A stretch of 50,007 bases of DNA from Bacteroidota bacterium. Its GTDB lineage: Bacteria > Bacteroidota > Bacteroidia > CAILMK01 > JACPUW01. Position 1 is the stretch's first letter, and the number at the start of each line of letters is the position of its first letter. A program made the translations under genes and the position numbers. This document shows, in pieces, positions 3,853-50,007 of this stretch. The stretch is taken from NCBI GenBank assembly GCA_016192035.1, contig JACPUW010000036.1, forward strand, positions 1-50,007, given 5' to 3'. The notes beneath the pieces are model-generated. The model saw nothing but the letters and a program-made list of their open reading frames with translations, did no database searches and was not told the origin of the DNA.

Positions 3853-3934
3853 TGAATAATTCACGAAAATAACCTGTCCACCCGACCTATTTTGGTGCCA
3901 AGGCCAACACTTACAGAAGCAGGAAGAATCACCC

Positions 3935-4092
3935 CCCCTACTCCCCCACCGCAAACCGCCCGTGGTAGCGGCCGGTCTTGGTCTGCACGTGCAGCAGGTA
4001 TAGGCCCACCGGCAGCCTGCCCGTGTACCTCGGTCCATTTTTTACACCCCCCCAAATAACCAGAATTTGGCATGCTTCTAGGCCGCGCCGGC
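3935..4092 (-). repeat. T9SS sorting-domain tail repeat, copy C (158 bp)
   Basis: Second full copy of the 158-bp repeat, identical to 205-362 except one base. It lies just upstream of the kelch gene in the same orientation as copy A, so copies A and C are direct repeats 3,730 bp apart. Identity stops at GGCCGCGCCGGC; the flanks beyond differ (CCTGG after copy A, ACATAGG after copy C). A short AATCACCCCCC run before the repeat is also shared with the sequence next to copy B. Confidence 0.9.
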
Positions 4093-4297
4093 ACATAGGT
4101 TAATTTTTTTTGCCCAATGGGTGCAACTGGTTAAAAATTCAGCTAATATTGCTCATGCTTATTTGCACCGCCCGGCTTCCATCTCTCCACCCTTTAACTA
4201 CATTCAGCTGTATTTCAGCAATGTGTACATACAGGGCAATAGGCGTCTGCCAAGTAATGCCAGAGCACGCCACAACACCTTTTAATTAACTACTTCG

Positions 4298-4771
4298 ATG
4301 AACGAATTTGAACAACCCGACTTTGAACAGAAACAACGCCACGGATGCGTCACCGCTTGGCTGGTACTCTTACTCTTGGCCAATTCGATCACGGCATTGA
4401 CCAACCTATTTGCCGCTGATTTTGTGATGAAGGCATTGCCCCAGGCAGCTCCATCCTATCTTGTCATCCTACTGGGGATCATAGGAATAGCCAACGTGTT
4501 TTTTGCCTACCGATTGCTCAAATGGAAAAAGGACGGCTTTTGGGGCGTAGCGGTTTCGGCATTGGTGGCTGTATTTATCAACTTCTCCATAGGTATGGGC
4601 ACCATGCTGTCACTGGCTGGGCTCATTGGGGTGGTATCTTATTCGCAATCTTACAAATTAAAGCCAACGGCACCACAGCTTGGGATAACCTGGAGTGAGT
4701 CCCTCCCTCTGTGGCTGTTGCTACCGGGCTACACTACCTGTGGTGCCCATGTCCACTGCCCACACCCATAA
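4298..4771 (+). CDS. Small integral membrane protein with an apparent 1-base frameshift near its end
   Basis: The annotated frame gives 157 residues with hydrophobic segments at about 19-42, 54-74 and 80-100 and a fourth beginning near 103. From about residue 111 the product becomes hydrophilic and implausible (VVSYSQSYK...). In the +2 frame from 4630 the sequence reads GGILFAILQIKANGTTAWDN then LE and TGA at 4696-4698. That completes the fourth membrane segment and gives the ending common to this family of ~130-residue four-helix proteins. One G missing from the GGGG run at 4628-4631 would explain it. It is either a real frameshift (pseudogene) or an assembly error. No function is known to me. 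Confidence 0.75.
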   Translation: MNEFEQPDFEQKQRHGCVTAWLVLLLLANSITALTNLFAADFVMKALPQAAPSYLVILLGIIGIANVFFAYRLLKWKKDGFWGVAVSALVAVFINFSIGMGTMLSLAGLIGVVSYSQSYKLKPTAPQLGITWSESLPLWLLLPGYTTCGAHVHCPHP

Positions 4772-4815
4772 TTGTACACTTTCAAACAACCAACATACCT
4801 TAAGAACCAAAATCC

Positions 4816-5811
4816 ATGAAAAAGGTATTGACATTACTCAAATGGCTGGGAATAGGGCTAACAGTGCTCATAGTTGGCGTAGTAGCCTTTGTGCTGCTCA
4901 CCTGGAACAAGACCTTTGATGCCCCCTTGCCCCATATAGCGGCCAGTACCGACTCCGCCATAATTGACAGGGGCAAGCACCTGGTCTTTGGCCCCGCGCA
5001 TTGTGCTACCTGCCATGTGCCCATGCACAAAATCATGGAGGTAGAAGCGGGCCTGGAAATGCCGCTGGTTGGTGGCTGGGAACTCCACATTCCACCCGGA
5101 TCGTTTAGGGCACCCAACCTTACGCCTGACCCACTTACAGGAATTGGCAACATAAGCGACCCACTCATAGCCCGTGCCCTGCGCCATTCCGTGGGCCACA
5201 CCGGACATTGTTTGTTTGACTTTATGCCTTTTCAGCAGCTATCCGATGCCGACCTTCTGGCTATTGTCTCATTCTTGCGTTCACAAGAACCTGTGGGCCA
5301 CGCAGTAGAACCCACAAAACCCAGTTTCCTGGGCAAGGCCTTGCTGGCTTTTGGCGCCCTAAAACCTAAGGGCCCTAACTCCCCACCACCCTCCCAAGTG
5401 GAAATAGCCCCTACCCCAGCCTTCGGTGAATACCTGGCCCGAAGCGTGGCCAACTGCATGGGCTGCCATACCGAACGCGACCTTAAATCAGGCGCCCTGG
5501 TGGGCCAGGAGTTTGCCGGTGGCAGTTTCTTCCCGCCCCACGAAGGTTTATCAGAGGGCTATGCCTTTGTTTCACCAAACATTACTCCCCATAAAGAGTC
5601 AGGTGTCATGGCCAACTGGGACCAGGACGAATTCATAAGACGGTTCAGGGCCGGCAGGCTGGGCACTACCAGCCCCATGCCCTGGGGAGCCTTTTCGCGC
5701 ATGACCGATACCGAGCTCAAAGCCCTGTACCTGTTTTTACAAACCCTTAACCCAGTGGATAACAAAGTGGTGAAAACCATCTATGCACCGGGTGAGCCCC
5801 TGCCGGTATAA
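4816..5811 (+). CDS. Membrane-anchored dihaem cytochrome c
   Basis: The 331-residue protein has an N-terminal membrane anchor (about residues 9-29) with no clear cleavage site. Two c-type haem motifs are visible: CATCH at 63-67 and CMGCH at 214-218. Each starts a cytochrome c domain with downstream Met-containing segments (FMPFQQLSD, SPMPWGAFS) that could supply axial ligands. The repeated PNLTPDPLTGIG / PNITPHKESGV pattern is typical of periplasmic dihaem cytochromes that pass electrons to terminal oxidases or accept them from dehydrogenases. No partner enzyme is adjacent, so the donor is unknown. Confidence 0.9.
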   Translation: MKKVLTLLKWLGIGLTVLIVGVVAFVLLTWNKTFDAPLPHIAASTDSAIIDRGKHLVFGPAHCATCHVPMHKIMEVEAGLEMPLVGGWELHIPPGSFRAPNLTPDPLTGIGNISDPLIARALRHSVGHTGHCLFDFMPFQQLSDADLLAIVSFLRSQEPVGHAVEPTKPSFLGKALLAFGALKPKGPNSPPPSQVEIAPTPAFGEYLARSVANCMGCHTERDLKSGALVGQEFAGGSFFPPHEGLSEGYAFVSPNITPHKESGVMANWDQDEFIRRFRAGRLGTTSPMPWGAFSRMTDTELKALYLFLQTLNPVDNKVVKTIYAPGEPLPV

Positions 5812-5821
5812 TTGTAGGGCC

Positions 5822-5923
5822 GCCATCCTACCTTGTTAATCATCCCTATTACTTTTTCCAAAAAAAACCCTTCGAACCGGGTATTTCTTGGTATATCTCT
5901 CTTTTCTTGGCCATCCTACCTTG
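5822..5923 (+). repeat. 14-bp direct repeat between two genes
   Basis: GCCATCCTACCTTG occurs at 5822-5835 and again at 5910-5923, 88 bp apart, in the 140-bp gap before the gene at 5952. The second copy runs into TTGAATTTTG and may overlap the promoter of that gene. The function is unknown. Confidence 0.5.
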
Positions 5924-5951
5924 AATTTTGACCGGTAAATAACCCAACTCC

Positions 5952-6533
5952 ATGTCTTTTCACCTGCCTAAGCCATTGTTTTCATTTCTTGCAAAAACCA
6001 CTGGCAAAAAAGCCCTCATTTGGTTCATTGTCACCAATGCGGTATATGCCTGTATGCTCCTTTACACCATACCCTACACCGTGAACCTGGCCGGCGGCAT
6101 GGCCCTGCCCGACATGATGCCCCTGGGCTATGACCACGCGTATGTAATCCGCCTGCTTCACTCCCTGGGCCAGGAAGGCCGCCATGCTTACCTCTACACC
6201 CAGATCCCCCTTGACATGGTCTATCCTGGCCTCTTTGCCCTAGCCTATGCACAGGTCATGGCTTTTTTCCTGCTTCGGCTTGGCAGGTATCATTCAGCAC
6301 TTTACATCCTCTGCCTGCTTCCCGTGCTGGCAGGCACCGCCGACTACCTTGAGAACTTTGGCATCATCTCCCTCATCCACCATTTCCCCTCCGTTTCGGC
6401 CTCTACCGTAGGCATCACCGGAGCTTTCTCTATCATAAAAAGCCTATCCACCACCGTGTATTTCTTTGCTTTGATAGGTATTGTCATTTGGTTTGTGGCT
6501 GCCCGGCCTTGGGCCAATGGCAAATCCGCCTAA
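5952..6533 (+). CDS. Integral membrane protein of unknown function
   Basis: The 193-residue product has about five hydrophobic segments (around residues 22-42, 90-108, 113-130, 139-160 and 165-186). A charged loop near residues 55-85 carries RLLHSLGQEGRHAYLYTQIP. The central block AGTADYLENFGIISLI with its conserved acidic residues is shared with hypothetical membrane proteins I recall from other Bacteroidota. No catalytic motif is seen. It follows the cytochrome gene by 140 bp, in the same direction, but the gap looks large enough for its own promoter. Confidence 0.75.
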   Translation: MSFHLPKPLFSFLAKTTGKKALIWFIVTNAVYACMLLYTIPYTVNLAGGMALPDMMPLGYDHAYVIRLLHSLGQEGRHAYLYTQIPLDMVYPGLFALAYAQVMAFFLLRLGRYHSALYILCLLPVLAGTADYLENFGIISLIHHFPSVSASTVGITGAFSIIKSLSTTVYFFALIGIVIWFVAARPWANGKSA

Positions 6534-6600
6534 CAGGTCCCTATATGTCCGTTACGTGGATATTACCCTGTGCTACAGCCTGTTTTTTATTGTAAACACC

Positions 6601-8160
6601 TTACGGCAGGCCGTACAGCAAATGTCCGCTCAAAAAAGACCTAGGTTTGCCCACCAGCCCAAGTAACCGCTCATACTCAAGCTGCATGGCAGGCGATTGA
6701 TGGACATGGGTGAGCAAAAGCCAATCGGCTTTCACTTCCATGTGCTGTACATAATTCACCGATTGCAGCACGCTGTCTTGGTCTATACCTGAAATGGTAC
6801 AAAGGACACCGTCACCCATTTCAGCCACTGCGCTCCCTATGTGCCCCCTGGCATTTGACAAAATCACTACATGACCATTAATTTCATGGTTCACAGGTAT
6901 TTGCATCAATCTATACCCGGTAAGCACCGTACTGGATAACACAAGGATCCATACCAGGGCTTTCTTGTACCGTGGGGAAAACTGGACCAAGACCTTGCCA
7001 AAGGCCGGTAGGCACATCACCGTGAAAACCAACAGGTACCGGTCGTTCATAAACACATGTGAGGGTACCCGGCTGGCCAAAAACATGCCCAGTGATAGAC
7101 CAAAAAATAATATGGGTACCCACCATAAGGGTGCTTGCGCCTTTGGTGCCCGCCACTTTGCCATTGTCCACCCAGCCACAATCCCCAGGGCAACATACAC
7201 CCCAACTACTTTCCACCAAGTATTAAAAAACTGGGTTATTACCGTGCCAAACAAAAGGTTAAGGGGCGCATACAAGGCCACCTCTACGCGAGACCGGCTT
7301 TCTGGCGTGGCATAGCCCCCTGCCGCCCTATAGATCAAACGCACCATATAACCAGGGTGCCAGGCTTCCAGCCCTATTAGTAACATGAGAACCATCACTG
7401 CGGCTACTGCCATTATCCGCCATTGACGCAGTGCCGACACCCCCCCCACACACCACCAAAGCAACACTGGCAGCAGCAGCACAAACTGAAAATGCGTGAG
7501 CATGCCGCCCAGGCAAGCCGCAAATAGCACAATTAGCCAAACCATTCCCCCCTTGGTTTTATACCCGTGTGCCGCATATAGTGCCCATAGTGCCCAGAAA
7601 GCATAAAACGTATAATGCCTAGATGTTAGCAACGACGTAATCACTACGGGATGCATAATGGCCACCACCCCCAGCAGGTAGGGCCACACCCCACTTAGCC
7701 CCAGCCTTCGCCAAAATAGGATCAGCAGAAACAGTATGCCCAGTTCCGACAATATATTGATGTATATGGAACTAGAAACGGTAAATGGTTTAAGCCTATA
7801 TTGCAGGTAGGCCAACTGAAAGTATAGCGGCGGATGGGTATCACATGAAAACATGCCTCTTCCTACCGTACCCATATCCGCCCCATTGTTGCCAAAAAAA
7901 CGTTGTTTCCAAGTACCTACCGGCACGGCCTTTTCTGAAAACCAACCATTTTCAAGTGAATCCCGCATTTGGTGTTCAAACGTGCAGAGGTTGCCCGTGG
8001 CTGCCATGGCCCCTATGGCATCATCATGTGGCAGGGCCACTTTGTGCCTCAACGCTTGCCACCGCACCAGGCCCCAGAGGGTCAGCAACATTACAAAGCC
8101 CAGGAAACTCCACAGCCGAATACCCTCCAAAAGCCTTCCGGCCCATTTCTTATCCGCCAT
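6601..8160 (-). CDS. GT-C type membrane glycosyltransferase (GT39/PMT-like)
   Basis: The ATG at 8160 (MADKKWAGRL) gives 519 residues. It sits one base after the rlmD stop codon; an upstream ATG at 8187 would overlap rlmD. The protein has about ten hydrophobic segments. After the first is a large outer loop with an acidic pair (HDDAIGAM) and the motif SCDTHPPLYF, which resembles the catalytic and substrate loops of dolichol/polyprenol-phosphate-sugar-dependent GT-C enzymes. The enzyme probably transfers a sugar from a polyprenyl-phosphate donor to a lipid, glycan or protein at the outer face of the inner membrane. Donor and acceptor are not known. It is probably co-transcribed with rlmD. Confidence 0.75.
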   Translation of the reverse strand: MADKKWAGRLLEGIRLWSFLGFVMLLTLWGLVRWQALRHKVALPHDDAIGAMAATGNLCTFEHQMRDSLENGWFSEKAVPVGTWKQRFFGNNGADMGTVGRGMFSCDTHPPLYFQLAYLQYRLKPFTVSSSIYINILSELGILFLLILFWRRLGLSGVWPYLLGVVAIMHPVVITSLLTSRHYTFYAFWALWALYAAHGYKTKGGMVWLIVLFAACLGGMLTHFQFVLLLPVLLWWCVGGVSALRQWRIMAVAAVMVLMLLIGLEAWHPGYMVRLIYRAAGGYATPESRSRVEVALYAPLNLLFGTVITQFFNTWWKVVGVYVALGIVAGWTMAKWRAPKAQAPLWWVPILFFGLSLGMFLASRVPSHVFMNDRYLLVFTVMCLPAFGKVLVQFSPRYKKALVWILVLSSTVLTGYRLMQIPVNHEINGHVVILSNARGHIGSAVAEMGDGVLCTISGIDQDSVLQSVNYVQHMEVKADWLLLTHVHQSPAMQLEYERLLGLVGKPRSFLSGHLLYGLP

Positions 8161-8161
8161 G

Positions 8162-9562
8162 CTACATTCTATTGAGCTGTGCCACACACTCCACGTGCGG
8201 CGTGTGCGGAAACATATCCACCGGCACCAGCTTGTCTATGGTGTATCTGGATTGTAGTAGGCCCAAGTCGCGGGCCAGGGTGGCCGGATTGCAGCTCACA
8301 TACACCACCCTGCGGGGCAATAACTGGAGTATGGCCTCCAATGCCTTGGGGTGCAGCCCCATTCGGGGCGGATCTACCACCACTACATCTGGCAGTGGAT
8401 GCTTGTTGGCCCATTCCCCGTTCAACAGTTCTTCCACCGTACCCATCAGGAACACCGCATGGCCCACTCCGTTCAGCCTGGCATTCTGCTGCGCCATGCC
8501 CACCGCCTCCTCCACGGTTTCTATTCCTATAACACGCTGACAATCTTGCGCCAAATAAATACCAATGGTGCCCACCCCGCAAAACAAATCGTAGAGGGTT
8601 TCCCCCGGCTCCAAACCGGCAAATTGCCTTACCCATTGGTACAACACTTCCGTTTGTCGCAAATTGGTTTGCATAAAAGACTTGGCATCTACCAAAAAGG
8701 AATACTGACCAATGGCCTGCACCAATTGCCCTGTGCCAAACACCAGGTGGGGGGCCAGGTCATATACCGTGTCGTTGTGCTTGTCATTTAGGTAGTAAAA
8801 TCCTGTTTCTATGGCAGGGAACCGCTCCCTCAAATGGGCCAGCAGCAATGGGGCATAGCCTGCCCCGGCACTGGTTACCATAATGCCCACCATGTACTGC
8901 CCCTTTTCGTTGTTTCGTATCAGTACAGAACGCAGTACCCCCTGGTGGCTGCGCGGGTCATAAAATGGCAAACCTTGTGCTGTGGCATGTGCAAACACTT
9001 CATTGCGAATGGCATTGCTGGGCTCGGGCTGTAGGTGGCATTGGTCTATGTGTAGCACTTTGTCCCATCGTCCTGGCGCGTGGTAGCCCAGTGCGCCCAA
9101 TGCCTCCGGGACCATGCCTTCCCCTCCTTGTGGCCACCACCTGAGGGCCGATGCCGAAAACTCCAATTTATTGCGGTAGTACTGGGTCTCTCCGCAGCCC
9201 ACTATGGGCATAAAATCAACCACTTGCACCTTTCCTATGCGCTGTACCACATCATGCACGTGCCGTTCCTTTAGGGCCAGTTGTGCCAGGTACTGTATGT
9301 GTTGCAGCTTGCAGCCTCCGCAGTCGGCGTAGTGTGCACAAAAAGGTTCCGCGCGTTCGGGTGAGGCGTGCTCCAAAAGATCCAGTCGCCCTTCATAGTG
9401 GTTCTTCCGCTGCCTATTGGTTGTCAATGAAATGACATCACCCCTACAGGCTCCGGGCACAAATACCACCTTGCCGTTTTCCTTCACTACCCCCCTGCCT
9501 TCTGAATCGTAGCCCTGTACGGCTACTGAAGCCATTTTGATGGGCTTGCTCTTACGCGCCAT
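8162..9562 (-). CDS. rlmD: 23S rRNA (uracil-5-)-methyltransferase, RlmD/RumA family
   Basis: This 466-residue protein has a TRAM domain at its N-terminus (about residues 8-65). Iron-sulfur ligand cysteines are C75, C81 and C84 (CAHYADCGGC), with C175 (IDQCHL) as the fourth. The SAM-binding loop is DLFCGVGTIG (325-334), followed by DPPR (397-400) and the catalytic cysteine C424 in SCNPATLARD. These are the full set of RlmD-family hallmarks; the exact target base (U1939 in E. coli, or another 5-methyluridine) is inferred. The ATG at 9562 is chosen because it lies 4 nt after an exact TACTTTTG promoter element and before the TRAM domain. An in-frame start at 9619 would overlap the upstream gene. 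Confidence 0.9.
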   Translation of the reverse strand: MARKSKPIKMASVAVQGYDSEGRGVVKENGKVVFVPGACRGDVISLTTNRQRKNHYEGRLDLLEHASPERAEPFCAHYADCGGCKLQHIQYLAQLALKERHVHDVVQRIGKVQVVDFMPIVGCGETQYYRNKLEFSASALRWWPQGGEGMVPEALGALGYHAPGRWDKVLHIDQCHLQPEPSNAIRNEVFAHATAQGLPFYDPRSHQGVLRSVLIRNNEKGQYMVGIMVTSAGAGYAPLLLAHLRERFPAIETGFYYLNDKHNDTVYDLAPHLVFGTGQLVQAIGQYSFLVDAKSFMQTNLRQTEVLYQWVRQFAGLEPGETLYDLFCGVGTIGIYLAQDCQRVIGIETVEEAVGMAQQNARLNGVGHAVFLMGTVEELLNGEWANKHPLPDVVVVDPPRMGLHPKALEAILQLLPRRVVYVSCNPATLARDLGLLQSRYTIDKLVPVDMFPHTPHVECVAQLNRM

Positions 9563-9566
9563 GGCG

Positions 9567-9574
9567 CAAAAGTA
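9567..9574 (-). promoter_or_regulatory. -7 promoter element TACTTTTG of rlmD
   Basis: Exact match to the Bacteroidota sigma-A -7 consensus TAnnTTTG. Four bases (CGCC) separate it from the ATG at 9562, so the transcript would be leaderless or nearly so. No clear -33 TTTG is visible. Confidence 0.6.
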
Positions 9575-9584
9575 TCGGGTCGGC

Positions 9585-10061
9585 CTATTTAGCGGTGGCC
9601 CAGCGCACTTTCTCTTCAAGGATGGGCATGAAGTCGTCGGGGCCGTGATAGCCCTGTACCATGGTTACCTGGTTTTTTTCAATTGAAAGGAAAAAGGTGG
9701 TGGGGTACCCTACCCCCTGCCCACCCGATAGGTTGGCCAGCAATTCGCGGCCTGACATTTCGGTTTCGCCTACCTTATAGGTTTGCTTAAGCTCGGGATT
9801 GAATTTCACGGGCACAAAGTGTTTGTTTATATAGCTGATTACCTGCGCCTTGCTATAGGTATCGGCATCCATCCGCTTGCACCAGCCACACCAGTCGGTA
9901 TAGGCATCTATCAGCAGTGGCTTGTTGGTCTTCTTGGCCTCTATATAGGCTTCGTTCCATTCCTTCCATTCCAGGGCGGTAGTACCCAGCGGGTACCTAA
10001 ATGCCATAAAAAACGCTACTGCACTAAATATAAGCAGGGTTATGAGGTGGCGGGTTTCCAT
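9585..10061 (-). CDS. Membrane-anchored thioredoxin-like protein
   Basis: The 158-residue protein starts with a hydrophobic anchor or signal (about residues 6-21) followed by a thioredoxin fold of the thioredoxin_7/DUF255 type. The redox motif is WCGWCKRMD with C58 and C61, and the cis-proline loop is GYPTTFF. The domain should face the periplasm and reduce or isomerise disulfides, or serve a cytochrome or envelope protein. It lies upstream of rlmD with 22 bp between the stop and the rlmD start. A TAGATTTG element at 10079-10086 lies 17 nt before the ATG. Confidence 0.85.
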   Translation of the reverse strand: METRHLITLLIFSAVAFFMAFRYPLGTTALEWKEWNEAYIEAKKTNKPLLIDAYTDWCGWCKRMDADTYSKAQVISYINKHFVPVKFNPELKQTYKVGETEMSGRELLANLSGGQGVGYPTTFFLSIEKNQVTMVQGYHGPDDFMPILEEKVRWATAK

Positions 10062-10078
10062 GATGTGTCAATAAGCGG

Positions 10079-10086
10079 CAAATCTA
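10079..10086 (-). promoter_or_regulatory. -7 promoter element TAGATTTG of the thioredoxin-like gene
   Basis: Exact TAnnTTTG match, 17 nt before the ATG at 10061. It lies in the 72-bp divergent region shared with the gene starting at 10134. Confidence 0.55.
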
Positions 10087-10133
10087 TCCAAACCCTAATT
10101 TGGCAGCTGTTAAAAGTCTTGTAAATGCATTAA

Positions 10134-11396
10134 ATGAACTGGTTGAACCACCTTTCTGCCCGCGCTGACTACCTCTGCCTGTGCTTCTTGGCGATCCTCT
10201 ATCAAGGCAGCCAAGCCAATGGGCCGCTGCTGGGCGACTCTTTGGGCTTTACACTGGGCAGCAGCCAGGGATTTCAGTGGGCTACCAATGCCACCGGACA
10301 CATGGCCTACGCAAACTGGCTGTACGCCCTACACCTAATTTTTCCTTCTTATGAGCCCCATCAAGTGTTTGCCTGGTCATCCCTGGCTTGGTCGCTAGCC
10401 ACCCTTCTCGTACTACGTCAGCTCTTTTCGGCCATGGCACTGCCTGTTATCCTTCGTTCAGCGGCCTTACTCTCACTTGGGCTTTCTTTCACCTTTTGGC
10501 GGCATTCCTGCCAGGTAGAGGTATATGCGGCCAACGCTTTTATCACCTCTGTGGCCTGCCTATGGTTCTACAAATGGCATATCCATAGGCAAAGCAAATG
10601 GCACATAGCCACCGCATGGCTCTTGGGCATGGCCCTGTGGGTCTATATCCAGTTTGTGCTCTACCTGCCTTTTCTTGTCCTTTGGTCTGTATGGGCCCAC
10701 CAACTTCGTTTCCATATGCATTTGTTGGGCCTGCTGGCTTTTGGCCTACCCGCACTTGCCCTAGTGGTCCCTCCGTGGTTGCTTCATACCAATACCCTAT
10801 CCAGTATCTTGTTTGACAATGCGTTTAAAGATGAAGTCCTCACCGCTCAGTGGCAGGTACTGCTCAAGGGGTTGGTCCTATCATTGGCCTATCTCCTGTA
10901 CAATTTCGGATGTGTAGGCATAGCCATGATTGCCGCGCTGTGGCAGGGCCGCCGAAATCAATATCAAATGGGCCTGGCCACCATGGCCCTCACCATTTGG
11001 CTTTTTGCCGCCAGGTATCCCGTTACCGATGCCCACGTGTTTTACCTCCCTGCCTACATACCCCTGCTGGTGCTGCTGGCCCAGCGCATGGCCTCCTATG
11101 GCCAAATGCCTAAGCGCTGGATGAACTGGGCCGCCCTAGCAATGTGCTGCGCCCAACCTATGGTGTATATGATTACTGAAAACGTTGTTTCCCAACTACC
11201 TCAAGGCCAAAAATTGGCAGACGACAAATGGTACAAAGGCGGTTTGGAATACTACTTGTGGCCCGGGCTAGCACATGCGCCCACAGCCAATGAATTATGC
11301 CATTGGCTGAACGACCCTTCATTGGATATGGCACAATATGAAGAAATTGAACAAAATTCACGGTACCTTCAATCCTATTGCGCCCGCCACCCATAG
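10134..11396 (+). CDS. GT-C/DUF2723-like polytopic membrane protein
   Basis: The 420-residue product has about nine or ten hydrophobic segments. The first loop contains GPLLGDSLGFTLGSS and then WATNATGHMAYANWLY, placed like the GDSGE...HPPGYPL loop of DUF2723 (POMT-like) proteins. The segment FWRHSCQVEVYAANAF corresponds to the conserved 'FW..xxVEVYA' helix of that family. These proteins are predicted glycosyltransferases acting on the outer face of the inner membrane. The proline-rich substrate motif is replaced here, so activity is uncertain. It is shorter than typical DUF2723 proteins and lacks their C-terminal domain. The gene is divergent from the thioredoxin-like gene. Confidence 0.65.
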   Translation: MNWLNHLSARADYLCLCFLAILYQGSQANGPLLGDSLGFTLGSSQGFQWATNATGHMAYANWLYALHLIFPSYEPHQVFAWSSLAWSLATLLVLRQLFSAMALPVILRSAALLSLGLSFTFWRHSCQVEVYAANAFITSVACLWFYKWHIHRQSKWHIATAWLLGMALWVYIQFVLYLPFLVLWSVWAHQLRFHMHLLGLLAFGLPALALVVPPWLLHTNTLSSILFDNAFKDEVLTAQWQVLLKGLVLSLAYLLYNFGCVGIAMIAALWQGRRNQYQMGLATMALTIWLFAARYPVTDAHVFYLPAYIPLLVLLAQRMASYGQMPKRWMNWAALAMCCAQPMVYMITENVVSQLPQGQKLADDKWYKGGLEYYLWPGLAHAPTANELCHWLNDPSLDMAQYEEIEQNSRYLQSYCARHP

Positions 11397-11471
11397 GCTA
11401 TTTAATTTCGCAACCCTACCACTATTTTAGGTACTTATGCGTTTTGCTGCCTTGTCCCAGCTACCTATTTT

Positions 11472-13751
11472 ATGCCAAAACCATTGAATATCAAGCCTTT
11501 TTCAATCCAATTGTTGCTTATCGCCTGCATGGTTACCCCTTTGGCAGCCCAGATAGGCATAGGGGATTGGAGGGCACACCTACACCTGGCCAAAGCCTTA
11601 AAGGCCGTTGAAACACCTACCAGGGTGTATTGCGGCACCACCAACGGGGTATTTTTCATTGATAAAGAAGACAATTCAGTAACTTCTCTGTCCACCGTGG
11701 ACGGGCTAAGCGACGTAATGACCCATACCTTAGCCTATGAGCCAGCTACCAACCATGTCTTTGTGGCCTATAGCGGCGGAATGGTTGATATGCTGGGCCC
11801 CGACTATGTGGTCCCCATACCGTTTATAGCCGACAACGCCAATATAAGCGGTGACAAAACCGTAGTAAACTTTTTCTTTTACAGTGGCTTGGCCTATATG
11901 GCCACCGCGTTTGGGGTAGTGGTGTACGATATTGAAAAGCGCGAGGTGCGCGAGTCATACCTGAACCTGGATGAACGTGGCAACCAACTGGCCGTGAATG
12001 ACGTGGTCGTTTTTCAAAACCGCGTCTTTGTTGCCACAAAAAATGGCATTCGCTCGGGAAGCCTAAACGATAACCTTTTGGATTTTAACTTCTGGGTTAC
12101 CACCCATCCATCCCCTTGCAGTTTGATGGAAGTGTTTGACAACCGCTTGATCCTCTATTTTGCTAACGACAGCCTACTGGAATATGACGGGGGCACCTAT
12201 AGCCCGTATGGCCCACTCCCCAAGGCTACCGTGAGGCAAATGGATGTGCAAAACGGCAAATTGGTGGTTACCAAATGGAACCATATCTCCATACTGTCAT
12301 CTGATGGCCAGCATGACTCAGTACTAACCAATGCGCCCTCCCACGGCATGCTTGACCATGAGGGCACCATGTGGGTGAGCAGCATGTCAAATGGCCTCAT
12401 CAAGTTTAGCGAAACACGGAGGTACTTTACCCCAAACGGCCCCGGAGGGCCTACCGCCTGGGACTTTGACTATTCCAAGGGTGAATTATGGGTGGCCAGC
12501 GGCGGTGTCGATTTGGCCTACAATCCCCGGTTTTTAAACAATGGGGCCTATGTATTTGCCGACAATAAATGGCAGAACCTGCACGGAGGCAACACCCCAG
12601 CCCTGAGCCCCTTGCGTGACATACACCAGGTGAGGATAGATGAAGTGCGTGGGACGAAATACCTGGCGAGTTTCAATAAGGGTGTCGCGATGATTTCCGA
12701 CAACGAAGTACAGGTATTTGGCAAGGACAATACCGACGGCGCCCTGGCACCGGCAGGTGGCGGTACCGACCCAGATGCCCTCGTGCTGGTGTCTGGTATA
12801 GACCTGGATACACAGGGCAATTTGTGGATGGGCGTGCAATATGCCGAAAACTCCCTGGCCGTGCGCACGGCCAACGGCACATGGAAATCCTTTTTCCTGG
12901 GCCCTGATAACAGGGTTACCCGCCTTTTGGTGGATGAAAGCGGTCAAAAATGGCTTATTGTACACCTGGACGGCATATACGTGTTTAATGACGGGGGTAC
13001 CCCACTAAACGAAAGCGACGACAAGGTGAAGCACATAAATACCAGCGTGGGCAATGGCAACCTGCCTGCCCCCGACGTGTACTGTATGGCCCTGGACTTG
13101 GATGGCAATATTTGGCTAGGTACCGGCGAAGGCGTTTGTGTAGTATATAATCCTGACAATGTGTTTGAAGCCAATGCCTCCTTTGATGCCACCCGCCCCA
13201 TAGTGACCGATGGCGATGTTTCTGCGTATCTCCTTGAAGGACAGAAAGTAAACTGTATAGCTGTGGATGGTGCCAATCAAAAATGGCTGGGCACCAACAA
13301 CGGGGTATTTGTGACCAATTCAAATGGCGACGAAGTACTGTACCGTTTCACGGTTGACAATAGCCCCTTGCTTTCCAATATGGTGTATGCCATAGGCATA
13401 GACGGCAAGACCGGCGAGGCGTTTTTTGCTACTTCCAAGGGTTTGGTATCCTATCGGGCACAGGCTACCTTAGGGGATTCCTTACAGCAACAAGTGTATG
13501 TGTTTCCCAATCCCGTTAGGCCAGGCTACACCGGCCCCATAGCCATTACCGGGCTCACCCCAAACGCCAACGTGAAGATAACCGACATATCAGGTAACCT
13601 GGTATATGAAACCAATGCCCAGGGCGGCACCGCCGTGTGGTATGGCAAAGATTTCTCTGGAATGAGTGTTTCCTCAGGTGTTTACCTGGCCTTTAGCGCC
13701 AACCGCAATGGCGAACAAACCCATATCACCAAGATAATGGTGGTACGATAA
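11472..13751 (+). CDS. porZ: T9SS attachment-complex protein PorZ
   Basis: This 759-residue protein has a signal peptide ending at about residue 26 (PLAAQ) and then IGIGDWRAHL, the characteristic mature start of PorZ. Two beta-propeller domains of the two-component-regulator type follow, with repeats such as YCGTTNGVFFID, NIWLGTGEGVC and KWLGTNNGVFVT. The last ~85 residues (VYVFPNPVRPGYTGP to ITKIMVVR) form a type A sorting domain, which PorZ proteins also carry. In Porphyromonas PorZ works with PorU, PorQ and PorV in the surface complex that cleaves sorting signals and attaches cargo to A-LPS. It overlaps recO by one base, a pairing I believe recurs in the phylum. Confidence 0.9.
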   Translation: MPKPLNIKPFSIQLLLIACMVTPLAAQIGIGDWRAHLHLAKALKAVETPTRVYCGTTNGVFFIDKEDNSVTSLSTVDGLSDVMTHTLAYEPATNHVFVAYSGGMVDMLGPDYVVPIPFIADNANISGDKTVVNFFFYSGLAYMATAFGVVVYDIEKREVRESYLNLDERGNQLAVNDVVVFQNRVFVATKNGIRSGSLNDNLLDFNFWVTTHPSPCSLMEVFDNRLILYFANDSLLEYDGGTYSPYGPLPKATVRQMDVQNGKLVVTKWNHISILSSDGQHDSVLTNAPSHGMLDHEGTMWVSSMSNGLIKFSETRRYFTPNGPGGPTAWDFDYSKGELWVASGGVDLAYNPRFLNNGAYVFADNKWQNLHGGNTPALSPLRDIHQVRIDEVRGTKYLASFNKGVAMISDNEVQVFGKDNTDGALAPAGGGTDPDALVLVSGIDLDTQGNLWMGVQYAENSLAVRTANGTWKSFFLGPDNRVTRLLVDESGQKWLIVHLDGIYVFNDGGTPLNESDDKVKHINTSVGNGNLPAPDVYCMALDLDGNIWLGTGEGVCVVYNPDNVFEANASFDATRPIVTDGDVSAYLLEGQKVNCIAVDGANQKWLGTNNGVFVTNSNGDEVLYRFTVDNSPLLSNMVYAIGIDGKTGEAFFATSKGLVSYRAQATLGDSLQQQVYVFPNPVRPGYTGPIAITGLTPNANVKITDISGNLVYETNAQGGTAVWYGKDFSGMSVSSGVYLAFSANRNGEQTHITKIMVVR

Positions 13752-14455
13752 TGCAACCCGACAAGGGTATCGTACTGGGTTCCTTGCGTTTTGGCGACCA
13801 CGATGCCATAGCGCGCATCTATACCCGGCGCCAGGGTGTATGTACATTTATGTGCAAGGGCATACATGGTCGCCGCAGCCAAATAACGCCCTCCATGCTC
13901 CAGCCCATTACGCTGCTTGATATGGTGTATAGGCACCGCGAAAACCAGAATATGCAGTATGCCAAAGAACTTAGGGCTAACCCTCCCTTACTACAATTAC
14001 AAGGCAATATGTCAAAAACGGCAATTGCCCTGTTTTGCGCAGAGGTGCTGCAAAAAACCATGGTACATGCCCAGTGCGACGAACAGCTTTTTGACGACCT
14101 ATGGGGACAAGCCATTTCACTGAATAACTGCGATATAGTAAGCCCATACTGGCCCCATCTATTCCTTATTAAGCTGGCCAGAAACCTGGGACTGGAGCCC
14201 TCCGGCTTGCCACAGGGAGGCCTTCTGCACCTATCCATGGGTGGCTTTATGGAAACCAAAAACTTGGTGGCAGAGCCTTCAACCTCATATGATTCCCTGG
14301 CACTCCATCAGCTTATTCAAGGACAAGAACCTGACCCATTGCCCAAGCCCATGCGTATTGCCCTGCTGGGCAAGATTTTATCCTACCTTTCGTATCATTT
14401 AGACGATTTTAAGGAACTCAAAAGCCTTCCTGTGCTCCATCATGTTTTTCAGTGA
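13751..14455 (+). CDS. recO: DNA repair protein RecO
   Basis: The 234-residue product begins MQPDKGIVLGSLRFGDHDAI and continues through KGIHG; this is the N-terminal OB fold of RecO. A helical C-terminal domain follows. RecO binds single-stranded DNA and with RecR loads RecA onto SSB-coated DNA in the RecFOR pathway. The C-terminal zinc-binding cysteines found in many RecO proteins are not evident; this region reads GLEPSGLPQGGLLHLSMGGF without a CxxC pair. The start codon overlaps the porZ stop (TAATG), so translation is likely coupled. Confidence 0.9.
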   Translation: MQPDKGIVLGSLRFGDHDAIARIYTRRQGVCTFMCKGIHGRRSQITPSMLQPITLLDMVYRHRENQNMQYAKELRANPPLLQLQGNMSKTAIALFCAEVLQKTMVHAQCDEQLFDDLWGQAISLNNCDIVSPYWPHLFLIKLARNLGLEPSGLPQGGLLHLSMGGFMETKNLVAEPSTSYDSLALHQLIQGQEPDPLPKPMRIALLGKILSYLSYHLDDFKELKSLPVLHHVFQ

Positions 14456-16799: not shown

Positions 16800-16807
16800 T
16801 ATTTTTG
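16800..16807 (+). promoter_or_regulatory. -7 promoter element TATTTTTG of the His-rich lipoprotein gene
   Basis: Exact TAnnTTTG match, 26 nt before the ATG at 16834. The palindrome at 16804-16822 overlaps its 3' half, the usual arrangement for a repressor site. An identical TATTTTTG precedes the lipoprotein gene at 19648. Confidence 0.6.
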
Positions 16808-16822
16808 CAATTCAGTTGCAAA
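16804..16822. promoter_or_regulatory. Palindromic operator 1 (Fur/Zur-like candidate)
   Basis: TTTGCAA (16804-16810) and TTGCAAA (16816-16822) are perfect inverted repeats around a 5-nt centre. Aligned on its centre with the palindrome at 19599-19619, the inner pattern TGCAA-n5-TTGCA is shared, and 14 of 21 positions agree. It overlaps the -7 element and lies 11 nt before the lipoprotein start codon. Regulator identity is inferred from the metal-uptake context. Confidence 0.65.
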
Positions 16823-16833
16823 TACAACAAATC

Positions 16834-17238
16834 ATGATTAAGTACGCATTTTTTGCCCTCCTGCCAATCATTGCCCTACTACCGGCATGTGACCGCCATG
16901 AAAGCGAACACCACCATACGGAAGTGACTTTTGTTTCGCCCACCGATGGCCAAGAAATCCCTGAGGGCCAGGCCAGTGACATAGAGCTGCGCATAGACTT
17001 TAGCACTGAAGGGGAGCATTTGGAAGGGATAGACATTCGCCTATTTACTACTGCTAGCCCCACCGAGGCCATTTTTACCCATAAAATTCACGAACACGAA
17101 CAGGCCCACAGTTTTGTACAGAACCTAGACCTATCGGCCTATACCAGCGGCACGGCATTTACCCTGGATGTATCGGTGTGCCATGACCACGAATGCACCG
17201 ACAAAGAGTTGGAATCCATTACTTTTCGCCTGGAGTAG
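16834..17238 (+). CDS. His-rich periplasmic/outer-membrane lipoprotein
   Basis: The ATG at 16834 gives 134 residues beginning with a lipoprotein signal (MIKYAFFALLPIIALLPACD), lipidated at C19. An in-frame ATG at 16747 would remove the lipobox from the N-terminus and run over the promoter and operator, so I reject it. The mature protein is rich in histidine and acids (CDRHESEHHH, HKIHEHEQAH, VCHDHEC) and looks like a single Ig-like beta-sandwich. It resembles DUF4625-type lipoproteins only loosely. The His clusters suggest binding of a transition metal. Its 3' end overlaps the convergent TonB-receptor gene by 20 bp, and it shares an operator type with that gene. Confidence 0.7.
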   Translation: MIKYAFFALLPIIALLPACDRHESEHHHTEVTFVSPTDGQEIPEGQASDIELRIDFSTEGEHLEGIDIRLFTTASPTEAIFTHKIHEHEQAHSFVQNLDLSAYTSGTAFTLDVSVCHDHECTDKELESITFRLE

Positions 17239-19582
17239 GGTTTCTTTTGCCCATTGATAAAGGCATATGTAGGCCCAATAAAAAATTGCGTCCCTGCTCC
17301 GGCAGGTTAAGTGCTCTGTATCGGCTCATGTGGTTCAGGTAGGGCGTGTTAAACAGGTTGTTCACTCGCATGGACCAATGTAAAAAACCTAATGACCGAA
17401 AGGCCAACCTACCTCCCAGGCCCAAATGCACCAATATATAGCCAGGGGTTGCCGGCTCATTTCGTGCGGTGCGCTGCTGGGCCAGCACTTGGTCCACCAG
17501 GCACCATAGGCTTATCTGGTTGATGCGCTGTCCGTAAACTTTTTTCCACTCTAGACGGTGAAACAGGGCAAATGGCGGGCTAAACGGCAAGGAGCGCCCA
17601 GTAGTCCCCACTTGGCTAAACACTGCCTCCGCGCCCTGGCGCAATTCCAGGTTCTGGTATAATTCCATCACGTGTTCCACCTCCCCTCCCCAAATCCAAG
17701 CGTTGTCTTGATAGTAAGCATACACCTGTCCAGCCTCAGGCAAATAGGAAAACTTGCCCGAAGGCCCCAAGAATATAAATCCTTGATAGGCACTGCCCCA
17801 TAGGGCCATTTCTGCCCAGTGGCGGGCGGCGTGGTACCGCAGGCTACCATCCAGGTGCAGACCTGTTTCCTGTTGCAGTGAGGCATTACCCTGTTCATGC
17901 CTAAAAGTACCATGGTGTACGCCATTGGATGCCATTTCATTGGCATATGGCATTCTAAAGCTTCGGCTTAAATTGGCCTTAATATGAAAATGGGGGCCCA
18001 GGGGGCTGTGGGCACCCACCGCAGCCGACCATCCCAGGAACTGGCGCTTGGTAGGCGCAAACAACAAGCTATCAAGTATTTCACCCTGTGAGTTATATAG
18101 TATCCTATGCCCTTCACCAATCACATTGACCCCCTTGTCTATCCTAAGTGCCCCATTTATCCCAGCGCCTTCTTGCCAGGTGCACTCTACCAGATAGTAT
18201 GCCGCTAGCCTGCCCAAATCAAAATTGGGCAGCAGATAATCAAACCCACTGGAATGGTTTTGCTGCAACTGAAACCCCGCACCAAGCACCTGCTTTACCC
18301 CTTCATTTGGATTCCTTTCAAAGTGTCCATTGGCCGCATAAGTCATCAGGTCAAAGTGTTGTGCCAGCATACGCAGCGCGTCTGAATACGGTAGGTTTTG
18401 AAATTCGGGCCAGGCGTGTTCAGCCCTAAGGTTTCTCTGAACGGCCGCATCAATTGACAGGTGACTTTTTTTCCAGTGGGCAATAAAACTGCCCCCCAGC
18501 CTTTGGTGCCTCACCACTTGCTTTGGCAGGTCCATGTCGCGGTCGTTGTCATCAGGAACCAGACTATATGAAGTGGGAATGCCCACGGCACCCGCAAACA
18601 ATCCGCTGGTAAGGCCAAACTGGGAGTACCACAGGCGGTACGACGAATTGTGGCGGCGCAATCCCAAGCCTAGGCGGTAATGCAGCTCCTTCCCGGCGGT
18701 GTTTTTGAGCTTGCCATCGTATATGGGCAATTCAAACCCATTATATACAAAGGAGTTGGCCGGCAAACGGTAGTCTCCGTATGACTGTGTGGTAAACCGA
18801 CCTGACAGGGTAAGCCCTTTATGGGCACCGGCAAAGGACATGGATGTACCCACCAACCGGTTGTTGGATTCCAGCACCTGGTCTATGCCACCACGCAGGG
18901 TGCCAGGAGCCAAAAGGGCAAATGGCGGTGTATTGATCACCCCTCCGGTGGCATCTGCCCCATATTGCAGGGCTGAGGCTCCTTTGATGATTTCTACCTC
19001 TTCCACATCAAAGGGATCCATTTCAAGTCCGTGGTCCTGGCCCCATTGCTGACCCTCTTGGCGCACACCCCCTAGGTTTACCGCTATCCGGTTGCCGCTT
19101 AATCCCCTAATAACCGGTTTGCTAATACCTGCCCCGGTTTGAATATACTGCAGCCCCACTACCTGGCCCAGCGTGGCCGATAGGGTTTGTTTATGCATTT
19201 CATGTATCTGTGCGCCACCCAAATGCTCTACCGATTTGGAGTTTTCCAGTTTGGCGTGTTCATCAAGCACCACCATCTCTTCAAGCATTATAGTGGTCAT
19301 TTTCAAGCGCATCTGCACCCGGTCAAAGGGCTTTAGGGCGGTGTCTAATTCTTTGGTTTCATACCCAATCAGGGTGGCTACAATCCGGTATTTACCCGGT
19401 TCATACACGGGCAATTCAGCTTTGCCTTCCTCATTGCTTACCTGTACATATCCCTGCGGATAGACCACCAAGTGCACATTGGCCAATTCTTCACCTTCTT
19501 GTCCATATAGGTGTACCGTCACCTGGGCTTTAGCACAGAATGCGGCAAAAAAAACCGCCAATGCGGCTATGTGTCGATTCAC
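17219..19582 (-). CDS. TonB-dependent receptor, probable metal (zinc/haem-type) transporter
   Basis: The start is GTG at 19582 (MNRHIAALAVFFAAFCAKAQ), giving a 787-residue protein with a signal peptide. Residues ~20-100 form a carboxypeptidase-regulatory-like domain, ~110-230 the plug (RGLSGNRIAVNLGGVRQEG, then QQWGQDHGLEMDPFDVEEVE, then IIKGASALQYGADATGG), and the rest the 22-strand barrel. The plug signature with QQWGxDHG-xExDP is typical of receptors related to the ZnuD zinc/haem group. The barrel has several His-containing loops (for example NGVHHGTFRHEQGN). Flanking lipoprotein genes and the shared palindromes support a metal-uptake role; the substrate is inferred. Confidence 0.85.
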   Translation of the reverse strand: MNRHIAALAVFFAAFCAKAQVTVHLYGQEGEELANVHLVVYPQGYVQVSNEEGKAELPVYEPGKYRIVATLIGYETKELDTALKPFDRVQMRLKMTTIMLEEMVVLDEHAKLENSKSVEHLGGAQIHEMHKQTLSATLGQVVGLQYIQTGAGISKPVIRGLSGNRIAVNLGGVRQEGQQWGQDHGLEMDPFDVEEVEIIKGASALQYGADATGGVINTPPFALLAPGTLRGGIDQVLESNNRLVGTSMSFAGAHKGLTLSGRFTTQSYGDYRLPANSFVYNGFELPIYDGKLKNTAGKELHYRLGLGLRRHNSSYRLWYSQFGLTSGLFAGAVGIPTSYSLVPDDNDRDMDLPKQVVRHQRLGGSFIAHWKKSHLSIDAAVQRNLRAEHAWPEFQNLPYSDALRMLAQHFDLMTYAANGHFERNPNEGVKQVLGAGFQLQQNHSSGFDYLLPNFDLGRLAAYYLVECTWQEGAGINGALRIDKGVNVIGEGHRILYNSQGEILDSLLFAPTKRQFLGWSAAVGAHSPLGPHFHIKANLSRSFRMPYANEMASNGVHHGTFRHEQGNASLQQETGLHLDGSLRYHAARHWAEMALWGSAYQGFIFLGPSGKFSYLPEAGQVYAYYQDNAWIWGGEVEHVMELYQNLELRQGAEAVFSQVGTTGRSLPFSPPFALFHRLEWKKVYGQRINQISLWCLVDQVLAQQRTARNEPATPGYILVHLGLGGRLAFRSLGFLHWSMRVNNLFNTPYLNHMSRYRALNLPEQGRNFLLGLHMPLSMGKRNPTPGEK

Positions 19583-19586
19583 GCTG

Positions 19587-19594
19587 CAAAGCTA
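19587..19594 (-). promoter_or_regulatory. -7 promoter element TAGCTTTG of the TonB-receptor gene
   Basis: Exact TAnnTTTG match, four bases (CAGC) before the GTG start at 19582, so the mRNA is probably leaderless. The palindrome at 19599-19619 begins 4 nt upstream of this element, between the expected -33 and -7 positions. Confidence 0.65.
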
Positions 19595-19598
19595 GGGC

Positions 19599-19619
19599 AA
19601 ATGCAACTCCGTTGCATTT
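19599..19619. promoter_or_regulatory. Palindromic operator 2 between divergent lipoprotein and TonB-receptor genes (Fur/Zur-like candidate)
   Basis: AAATGCAAC (19599-19607) and GTTGCATTT (19611-19619) are perfect 9-bp inverted repeats around TCC. The site lies in the 65-bp region between two divergent start codons and next to both -7 elements (19587-19594 minus, 19636-19643 plus), so one bound dimer could repress both genes. Length, symmetry and position fit an operator of the Fur superfamily; zinc (Zur) is favoured only by the receptor type. Confidence 0.75.
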
Positions 19620-19635
19620 ACAACCAAGGCCAACC

Positions 19636-19643
19636 TATTTTTG
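19636..19643 (+). promoter_or_regulatory. -7 promoter element TATTTTTG of the DUF4625-like lipoprotein gene
   Basis: Exact TAnnTTTG match, four bases (TGCC) before the ATG at 19648. A TTG inside the right arm of the palindrome (19612-19614) lies 21 nt upstream and could serve as the -33 element. Confidence 0.6.
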
Positions 19644-19647
19644 TGCC

Positions 19648-20457
19648 ATGAAATGGTCAGTGTACCTCCTTACATTGCTATACATCTCCTTGATATTTAG
19701 CAACTGCGGGCTTGTTGACATAGACGAAAGCCCCCCCTTACTGGAATGGGGTGATAAGGGGAGCCCCATACAGGCCGATTCGGTATGTGGTGAGCTCTCG
19801 CCACATGCCATTCGCCTTATGGGCGGCGACACACTGGCGCTTGACCTGGTACTTACGGATGATGTGGGCTTGGGACAGCTAAAAATTGACATTCACGACA
19901 ATTTTGATTGCCACGGACATAGCAACAAAACCCAGGATTGGTACGTGCAGGATATACTAGACCTGCCAGGCACCTACGAAACACTATTCATGGAATACCC
20001 CGTGCCACCACAACCCACCGCCGGATATTATCACCTAACCATAAGATTAATAGATGATAATGGAAACGAAGGTGCACCGTCCAACATAGATCTTGTTGTA
20101 TTAAACCGTGCCGACCTTAAAGCTCCATTAATAAAAGTGGCACTGCCCAGCTCCAAGGAACTGATGGTGTCCAAAGGGGAAGAAGTACCGCTTAGTTATG
20201 TACTCGTTGATAACCACACCCTAGACCCTCCAAATAGCCGTTTTGTACTCCAATACAGGGATTTTTCATCGGGCAATGTATTTACCGTGGACCAATTAGA
20301 CCTTTTGGAACCAGACAGTACGGCAAGGATTGAAATAACATTCAGGGTGCCAAGCACATGGAAACACGGATATACATATGGCCTAGAAGCCTATGGCTTC
20401 GATTGGGTAAACAACCGGTCAAACCTAGCGGAACGGGTGATGGTAGTGGCAGAGTAA
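19648..20457 (+). CDS. DUF4625-like lipoprotein
   Basis: The ATG at 19648 gives 269 residues with a lipoprotein signal (MKWSVYLLTLLYISLIFSNC), lipidated at C20. The open frame extends upstream into the divergent TonB-receptor gene, but that part is not credible. The first domain (about 25-165) holds LVLTDDVGLGQLKIDIHDN, then FDCHGHSNK, and ends in RLIDDNGNEG; this is the pattern of DUF4625, a Bacteroidota lipoprotein family. A second beta-rich domain repeats the same logic (VPLSYVLVDNHTLD ... YGFDWVNNRSN). The DIHDNFDCHGH cluster could bind metal. The gene is divergent from the receptor gene, with the operator between them. Confidence 0.75.
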   Translation: MKWSVYLLTLLYISLIFSNCGLVDIDESPPLLEWGDKGSPIQADSVCGELSPHAIRLMGGDTLALDLVLTDDVGLGQLKIDIHDNFDCHGHSNKTQDWYVQDILDLPGTYETLFMEYPVPPQPTAGYYHLTIRLIDDNGNEGAPSNIDLVVLNRADLKAPLIKVALPSSKELMVSKGEEVPLSYVLVDNHTLDPPNSRFVLQYRDFSSGNVFTVDQLDLLEPDSTARIEITFRVPSTWKHGYTYGLEAYGFDWVNNRSNLAERVMVVAE

Positions 20458-49360: not shown

Positions 49361-49685
49361 CGCATGGTCTTGGACCAAAATGGAGAAGGCAAGCATATGC
49401 CTATTAATTGATAATTTGGTGCGAAATAGTTCAGTATTGGCGATTTTGGCGCATGATAGGACAGAGCCAAGGCAAATGGGAAAGAAACTTCCCTTGGTGC
49501 ATAAGGTACTGTATGGGGTGGCGCTATGGCAGGTTTGGCAAGCACATCATATTACCAAGACAGGTGTTGGGGAAAGAGATAGAATGTACAAGGAATCCAC
49601 CCAATTGTATATGAGGGGTTGGGGTCCATACTGTATGCCAAATATTTAGCTCCCTTTTTCCATTGTTCCACCAACGGAATGGCAT
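49361..49685. other. Intergenic region with no supported feature
   Basis: I see no gene, hairpin of note or promoter match in these 325 bp. An open frame at 49380-49649 on the plus strand has no protein-family resemblance. The two flanking genes are convergent. Confidence 0.5.
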
Positions 49686-50007
49686 CTATTCCAATTCCCT
49701 GATCTCTGCCTGGGTCAATCCCGTTGATTGCATTATCAAATCGATTGACACACCATTCCTTAACAGGTTTCTGGCAACTTCCTTCCTGCCTTCAATCCTG
49801 CCTTCAATCCTGCCTTCGATCTTGCCTTCAATCCTGCCTTCAATCTTGCCTTCAATCTTGCCTTCAATCTTGCCTTCAATCTTGCCTTCGTCGCGCGCCG
49901 TATCCAGGGAATTTTTCATGTCGCGGTAGTGCTTTAGGCTGTCTTCATATGAATTGACCTGTTCTGGCGTGAACCTGGCAATTTCCGCAGTCTCAAATAG
50001 TTTCTCA
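49686..50007 (-). CDS. PD-(D/E)XK nuclease-family transposase/Rpn-like protein, C-terminal part (gene runs off the window)
   Basis: The frame is open to the right edge; the stop is at 49686-49688. The visible ~106 residues begin EKLFETAEIARFTPEQVNSY and EDSLKHYRDMKNSLDTARDE. This is the C-terminal region of the PDDEXK_2/Rpn-type transposase family, which is multicopy in many Bacteroidota genomes. Nine EGKI/EGRI-type tetrapeptides follow (49782-49889), then a short helix-turn-helix-like tail (KEVARNLLRNGVSIDLIMQS, TGLTQAEIREL). The nuclease core lies beyond the window. Proteins of this family act as recombination-promoting DNA endonucleases. Confidence 0.8.
   Translation of the reverse strand, partial: EKLFETAEIARFTPEQVNSYEDSLKHYRDMKNSLDTARDEGKIEGKIEGKIEGKIEGRIEGKIEGRIEGRIEGRKEVARNLLRNGVSIDLIMQSTGLTQAEIRELE
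49782..49889 (-). repeat. 12-bp tandem repeat encoding EGKI/EGRI units
   Basis: Nine 12-bp units lie in frame inside the PD-(D/E)XK transposase gene. On the plus strand the unit reads CTTGCCTTCAAT or CTGCCTTCAATC-like variants, with a single-base C/T difference that switches Lys (AAG) and Arg (AGG). The period equals four codons, so copy-number change keeps the frame. Confidence 0.9.

Follow-up and report, generated by a model that had tools for sequence, protein, structure and literature searches.

Two palindromes beside TonB receptor and lipoprotein genes as probable operators of a Bacteroidota Zur

Introduction

Bacteroidota are among the major bacteria of gut, soil and sea. In one member of this phylum, a contig stretch of 50,007 nucleotides (hereafter the window) carries two palindromes next to three genes with metal-linked features, which raises the question of whether these palindromes are operators and, if so, which regulator reads them. 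Relatives from named genomes and the TAnnTTTG promoters both point to Bacteroidota as the source. The original prediction placed the three genes under one operator type and a Fur-superfamily repressor, likely zinc-responsive, and it gains support here from the recurrence of the site before zur-like and zinc genes and from the Zur-type ligands of the candidate regulator. Based on our results, the palindromes are very probably the operators of a Bacteroidota Zur, the zinc-sensing repressor of the Fur family, and the acting Zur of this genome is most likely a 138-aa protein encoded at C38:34232-34543. This reading draws, from sequence, on a common site, its genome-wide specificity, its placement in promoters, its recurrence beside zinc genes, its co-occurrence with a Zur clade and the ligand residues of that clade.

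The palindromes and promoters of the window

The features of the island are the following, with offsets of promoter elements counted from the operator centre.
16800..16807, plus strand: TATTTTTG, -7 element overlapping the left half of O2, offset -13
16803..16823, no strand: predicted Zur operator O2, TTTTGCAATTCAGTTGCAAAT, 5' of the His-rich lipoprotein gene
16834..17238, plus strand: His-rich lipoprotein, 134 aa, with 11 His and an LPAC lipobox; putatively a protein of the surface or periplasm that binds zinc
17219..19582, minus strand: TonB-dependent receptor, 787 aa, with Plug, barrel and carboxypeptidase-regulatory-like domains (Pfam); putative outer-membrane zinc receptor
19588..19595, minus strand: TAGCTTTG, -7 element of the receptor gene, its end about 5 nt from the GTG start, offset +15
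19599..19619, no strand: predicted Zur operator O1, AAATGCAACTCCGTTGCATTT, between the divergent TonB-receptor and DUF4625 genes and common to both
19636..19643, plus strand: TATTTTTG, -7 element of the DUF4625 gene, with 4 nt between it and the ATG start, offset +27
19648..20457, plus strand: DUF4625 lipoprotein, 269 aa (PF15418, 71 bits against a Pfam cut-off of 27)

O1 is a perfect 9-3-9 palindrome (AAATGCAAC-TCC-GTTGCATTT, 19599-19619) and O2 a perfect 7-5-7 palindrome (TTTGCAA-TTCAG-TTGCAAA, 16804-16822), both as originally described. Aligned on their centres they are identical at 14 of 21 positions, again in agreement with the earlier description, and the core that had been singled out, TGCAA-n5-TTGCA, is rare genome-wide. 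In simulated DNA of the window's composition, perfect 9-3-9 palindromes arise at 0.35 and perfect 7-5-7 palindromes at 4.7 per 50-kb window, so that both types lie within chance; palindromy alone was therefore rejected as evidence, since it proves little, and it is the common sequence of O1 and O2 that does count. Scored with a matrix from other genomes, O1 and O2 reach 26.9 and 19.7, and the next score in the window is 9.6. An identical copy of the O1 core precedes TonB receptors, zur, MerC and DUF4625 genes in many genomes. The 17-mer TTGCAATTCAGTTGCAA of O2 has an identical copy between MerC and zur in a Calditrichia genome (L243), beside a second operator, which supports O2, the weaker variant, as a real operator.

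The original prediction also had the palindromes overlapping or adjoining exact TAnnTTTG -7 elements, and all three elements are indeed present in the window. This relationship extends to other genomes: among 106 operator-linked promoters, TAnnTTTG lies at -20 to -11 from the operator centre in 22 (0.7 expected) and at +10 to +29 in 37 (1.65 expected). The three promoters of the window use both registers, at offsets of -13 (His-rich lipoprotein), +15 (receptor) and +27 (DUF4625). In either register, a dimer on the operator would occlude the -7 element or else the spacer preceding it, which makes repression the natural reading. Only some 4-5 nt separate the ends of the -7 elements from the receptor and DUF4625 starts, so that both transcripts may be leaderless, with predicted starts near 19583 and 19648. 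Searching for -7 element and operator as one combined pattern proved too restrictive (3 of 198 genomes).

Elsewhere in the window, near the contig end, an ORF at 49663-49929 consists largely of SILP repeat units, a short tandem repeat.

Sites across the genome

The regulon of this genome was defined by pattern searches. The exact core TGCAAN5TTGCA occurs eight times in the 2.98-Mb genome and its reversed control not at all; five of these eight sites are intragenic and were discarded as operators on that ground. The extended pattern WTGCAACN3GTTGCAW, with at most one mismatch, leaves only three sites in the genome, all of them in promoters and two of them being O1 and O2. The third of these ATGCAACnnnGTTGCAT-type sites is on contig C38. 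Beyond one mismatch the search becomes too noisy (317 matches at up to three mismatches, 137 in the control). The genome scan proposed with the original prediction, for which random or intragenic hits would have spoken against it, has thus returned as its best three sites the promoters of metal-linked genes.

The third site lies between a gene for a MerC-domain protein (PF03203) and a divergent ABC-transporter operon whose genes encode a LolD-like ATPase, a permease of the FtsX/MacB type that has a His-rich stretch, and a small exported protein. The regulated set of this genome would accordingly extend to another contig and include there the MerC gene and the ABC operon. The second Fur-family gene of the genome lies downstream, about 3 kb from this site. 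Two details of the expectation gained no support: ZnuB-type transporters (PF00950) are absent from the genome, and no operator was found upstream of its own zur gene with the matrix. One ZIP transporter is present.

Recurrence in the class and the phylum

Among 295 genomes of the class, 85 contain the exact pattern, at 136 sites in total, against seven for the reversed pattern, a control which contains CpG and may underestimate chance; permuted matrices were added as a further control for this reason. Context was read for 76 distinct sites of the class scan: 67 are no more than 220 bp away from a predicted start and eight are intragenic. The genes behind the site are mostly zinc-starvation genes. 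A Pfam tally of 89 neighbour genes gives 12 FUR, 12 TonB plug, nine MerC, five DUF4625, three HisI (phosphoribosyl-AMP cyclohydrolase), three [2Fe-2S] ferredoxin and two NicO, and in two genomes from sister classes of the phylum the site is directly followed by a COG0523 GTPase gene (cobW plus CobW_C). Genes for zinc acquisition and zinc sparing are therefore present behind predicted operators; among the targets, the classical ZnuABC and zinc-free ribosomal proteins were not seen.

The arrangement of the window is itself repeated. In G012 the receptor and DUF4625 genes diverge around the site as they do here, and G146 has one site for a DUF4625 gene and another for the receptor next to it. In G015, zur and the receptor are co-oriented, with zur upstream, and both diverge from DUF4625 with three stacked operators in between; in G035, an operator lies between zur and the receptor downstream of it. 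In G454, from another class, one island holds zur, an operator and MerC in this order, together with a further operator that is followed by two DUF4625 genes, a receptor gene and one for a small protein. By these examples, the three-gene island of the window is a recurrent cassette which elsewhere includes the regulator. The nearest relatives of the receptor also cluster with zur and DUF4625, and homologues of the His-rich lipoprotein are found directly 3' of operator-controlled DUF4625 genes in G146 (L073) and G176 (L058).

A second collection was made by the Zur protein alone, giving 80 loci from named genomes, to which a matrix built from the earlier sites was applied; the loci were sought with an 8-row Zur alignment, one of 26 rows having proved too diverse. 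Thirty-three of these loci have an operator within 4 kb at a score of at least 15, where eight permuted matrices give none (and, at a score of 12, at most one locus). Dyadobacter has the gene order MerC, operator, zur, receptor, operator. At score 15, the other 47 loci are without an operator close by, and since this is over half, the operator code probably diverges or the targets are unlinked. Taken with the 210 class genomes without an exact site, this means that either many lineages are without the system or the site diverges.

Several loci add observations of their own. The 11-kb island of G454 (L288, G454:C1:1519000-1538000, at 3884-14424) has five predicted Zur operators, which also precede genes for an FAD oxidoreductase (PF13738) and a DsrE-like protein, possibly new zinc-starvation genes. 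A thioredoxin-reductase-like flavoprotein is repeatedly encoded behind the operator (L061, L072, L076, L079, L102), once divergent from zur, and several of these proteins carry the motif GGSYAGLSAAM. At L083, L086 and L089, from related genomes, HisI (PRA-CH) and a thioredoxin-like [2Fe-2S] ferredoxin diverge around one or two operators, which suggests a zinc-linked HisI paralogue at these loci.

The regulator

The genome has two Fur-family genes, a canonical Fur on contig C23 and the gene for the 138-aa protein on C38, which has the Fur-family fold by PF01475 (39.4 bits, cut-off 23.1). The canonical Fur (L027:6948-7403) has Thr and Arg at the positions of E. coli Zur residues 106 and 143, at which most relatives have a structural-site Cys. 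Of 40 relatives, 13 carry a Zur-like Fur-family gene of weak score, and ten of these 13 have the exact site; of the 27 relatives without such a gene, one has a site, and it is intragenic (Fisher p = 3.4e-6). All operator-linked regulators and the C38 protein fall in one clade (FastTree support 0.985), which groups with E. coli Zur (0.904), the one known Zur included, and apart from Fur.

The residues of this clade were compared with the ligand list of E. coli Zur (PMC4219657). The Cys4 structural zinc site, made of two CxxC motifs, is present in 30 of 30 members, the C38 protein included, and the sensory ligands His77, Cys88 and His96 are retained in 29, 29 and 30 of 30; in the Fur set, position 88 is Ser or Ala in 25 of 26. 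The fourth ligand, Glu111, is replaced by Cys in all 30 members, and the Fur set has Glu in 26 of 26; non-structural zinc sites vary among Fur-family structures (PMC4219657), so that Glu111 is not a universal Zur feature. Against the NCBIfam Zur model PRK11639, an equivalog model aimed at proteins nearer to E. coli Zur that does not define the family, the C38 protein scores 24.5 bits (cut-off 167), and within this clade NCBIfam models do not distinguish between Zur, Fur and PerR. Dyadobacter has an orthologue of the C38 protein at L212:3992-4411. A structure model of a Dyadobacter orthologue (mean pLDDT 87) retrieved Fur-family proteins throughout the 50 Foldseek matches listed, with the top TM-score of 0.72 for E. 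coli Zur (4mtd_A).

Alternative explanations

A Fur-family clade could also sense a different metal, such as copper, nickel or manganese. The extra Cys in the sensory site would fit this, as would the NicO transporters at two loci and, in Chitinophagaceae, the SCO1-like genes found behind the site together with MerC and zur. We nevertheless consider it quite unlikely, as His77, Cys88 and His96 of E. coli Zur are retained, E. coli Zur is the neighbouring branch, and the targets include HisI paralogues, listed as Zur targets elsewhere (PMC6103462), and COG0523 GTPases, a classical Zur target (PMC2770081), both thus known from Zur regulons of other phyla. As regards the Chitinophagaceae loci themselves, L226:2817-4402 and similar ones have the order MerC, operator, SCO1/SenC, zur, which would appear to place a gene of a copper-chaperone family under the zinc operator.

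A second alternative is that the canonical Fur binds these operators in response to iron and that the receptor takes up haem or a siderophore. The genome does have this Fur, and TonB-hemin is the best NCBIfam model of the receptor (1e-28), although its matches to the TonB-hemin and ZnuD models are partial and below cut-off (94 bits against 950 for ZnuD, NF038289). A canonical Fur is, however, present in essentially all 40 relatives, with or without the site, whereas the site tracks the Zur-like gene; the regulators adjacent to sites are all of the Zur clade, and HisI, COG0523 and MerC are not typical iron genes. Iron control through Fur is hence very improbable. Finally, that the palindromes arose by chance, or serve a structural purpose (as hairpins, for example) with no dedicated regulator, is barely credible, since palindromes of such sizes are expected in 50 kb but phylum-wide sequence conservation, promoter placement and linkage to one regulator clade are not, and the contrast between operator and permuted matrices at the Zur loci refutes this reading at the sequence level.

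A model of zinc-dependent control

Under control by Zur, we infer binding to DNA, zinc as the signal and repression as the direction, and it is co-regulation only that points to roles in zinc movement for the lipoproteins, the MerC-type protein and the ABC operon. When zinc is sufficient, a zinc-loaded Zur dimer would sit on TGCAACnnnGTTGCA, overlapping or abutting the TAnnTTTG -7 element, and would shut the promoters of the TonB receptor, the DUF4625 lipoprotein, the His-rich lipoprotein, the MerC-type membrane protein and the ABC-transporter operon. When zinc is scarce, Zur would lose its zinc and leave the operator, and the derepressed cell would build an outer-membrane zinc capture system from a TonB-powered receptor and lipoproteins that may bind zinc or zinc complexes.

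A wider possibility, which we put forward tentatively and hold to be somewhat less than an even chance, is that of a distinct Bacteroidota branch of Zur, with a His-Cys-His-Cys sensory site and an operator code of its own, that controls an as yet undescribed outer-membrane machinery for zinc capture, in which DUF4625 and His-rich lipoproteins would pass zinc to a dedicated TonB receptor, as SusD does to SusC for glycans. With a defined operator and regulator, zinc-starvation genes become predictable across the phylum, and a testable role is offered for DUF4625, MerC-type proteins and His-rich lipoproteins, whose functions have hitherto been unknown or misleadingly named.

Comparison with known Zur systems

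The Zur regulons of Proteobacteria, Firmicutes, Actinobacteria and Cyanobacteria have been reviewed (PMC6103462), and the COG0523/Zur survey took its motifs from Firmicutes and Proteobacteria, reporting sites there and in Cyanobacteria (PMC2770081). Terms beginning with Bacteroid- or Flavobacter- are absent from both papers, and we found no earlier description of a Bacteroidota Zur box in the open-access literature. Like described regulons, the system presented here has a Fur-family regulator with a Cys4 site and a Cys88-type sensory site, a palindromic operator over the promoter, and targets that include TonB receptors, COG0523, HisI and an ABC operon. In contrast, the operator TGCAACnnnGTTGCA is unlike the E. 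coli Zur motif TRWNAYRWTATAWYRTNWCA quoted in PMC6103462, position 111 is Cys here and Glu there, and DUF4625 lipoproteins, His-rich lipoproteins and MerC are prominent targets; in this genome, a ZnuB-type transporter is absent.

The closest counterparts of single parts show the same mixture. As with the Zur-controlled zinc receptors ZnuD of Neisseria and znuK/L/M of Caulobacter, a TonB-dependent receptor lies behind a zinc operator, with partial similarity to the ZnuD model; unlike ZnuD, the receptor described here has an N-terminal carboxypeptidase-regulatory-like domain and lipoprotein partners. The C38 operon resembles Vibrio ZrgABCDE (PMC9817125, PMC6103462) in being zur-linked and in joining an ATPase and a permease of the ABC type with a small exported protein, but differs from it in that no DUF2796 (ZrgA) or DUF3299 (ZrgE) match occurs among the operon genes scanned. 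In conclusion, the principle would be that of the known Zur, and it is the operator sequence, the ligand set of the sensory site and the regulon of lipoproteins and MerC that appear to set this system apart from the described cases.
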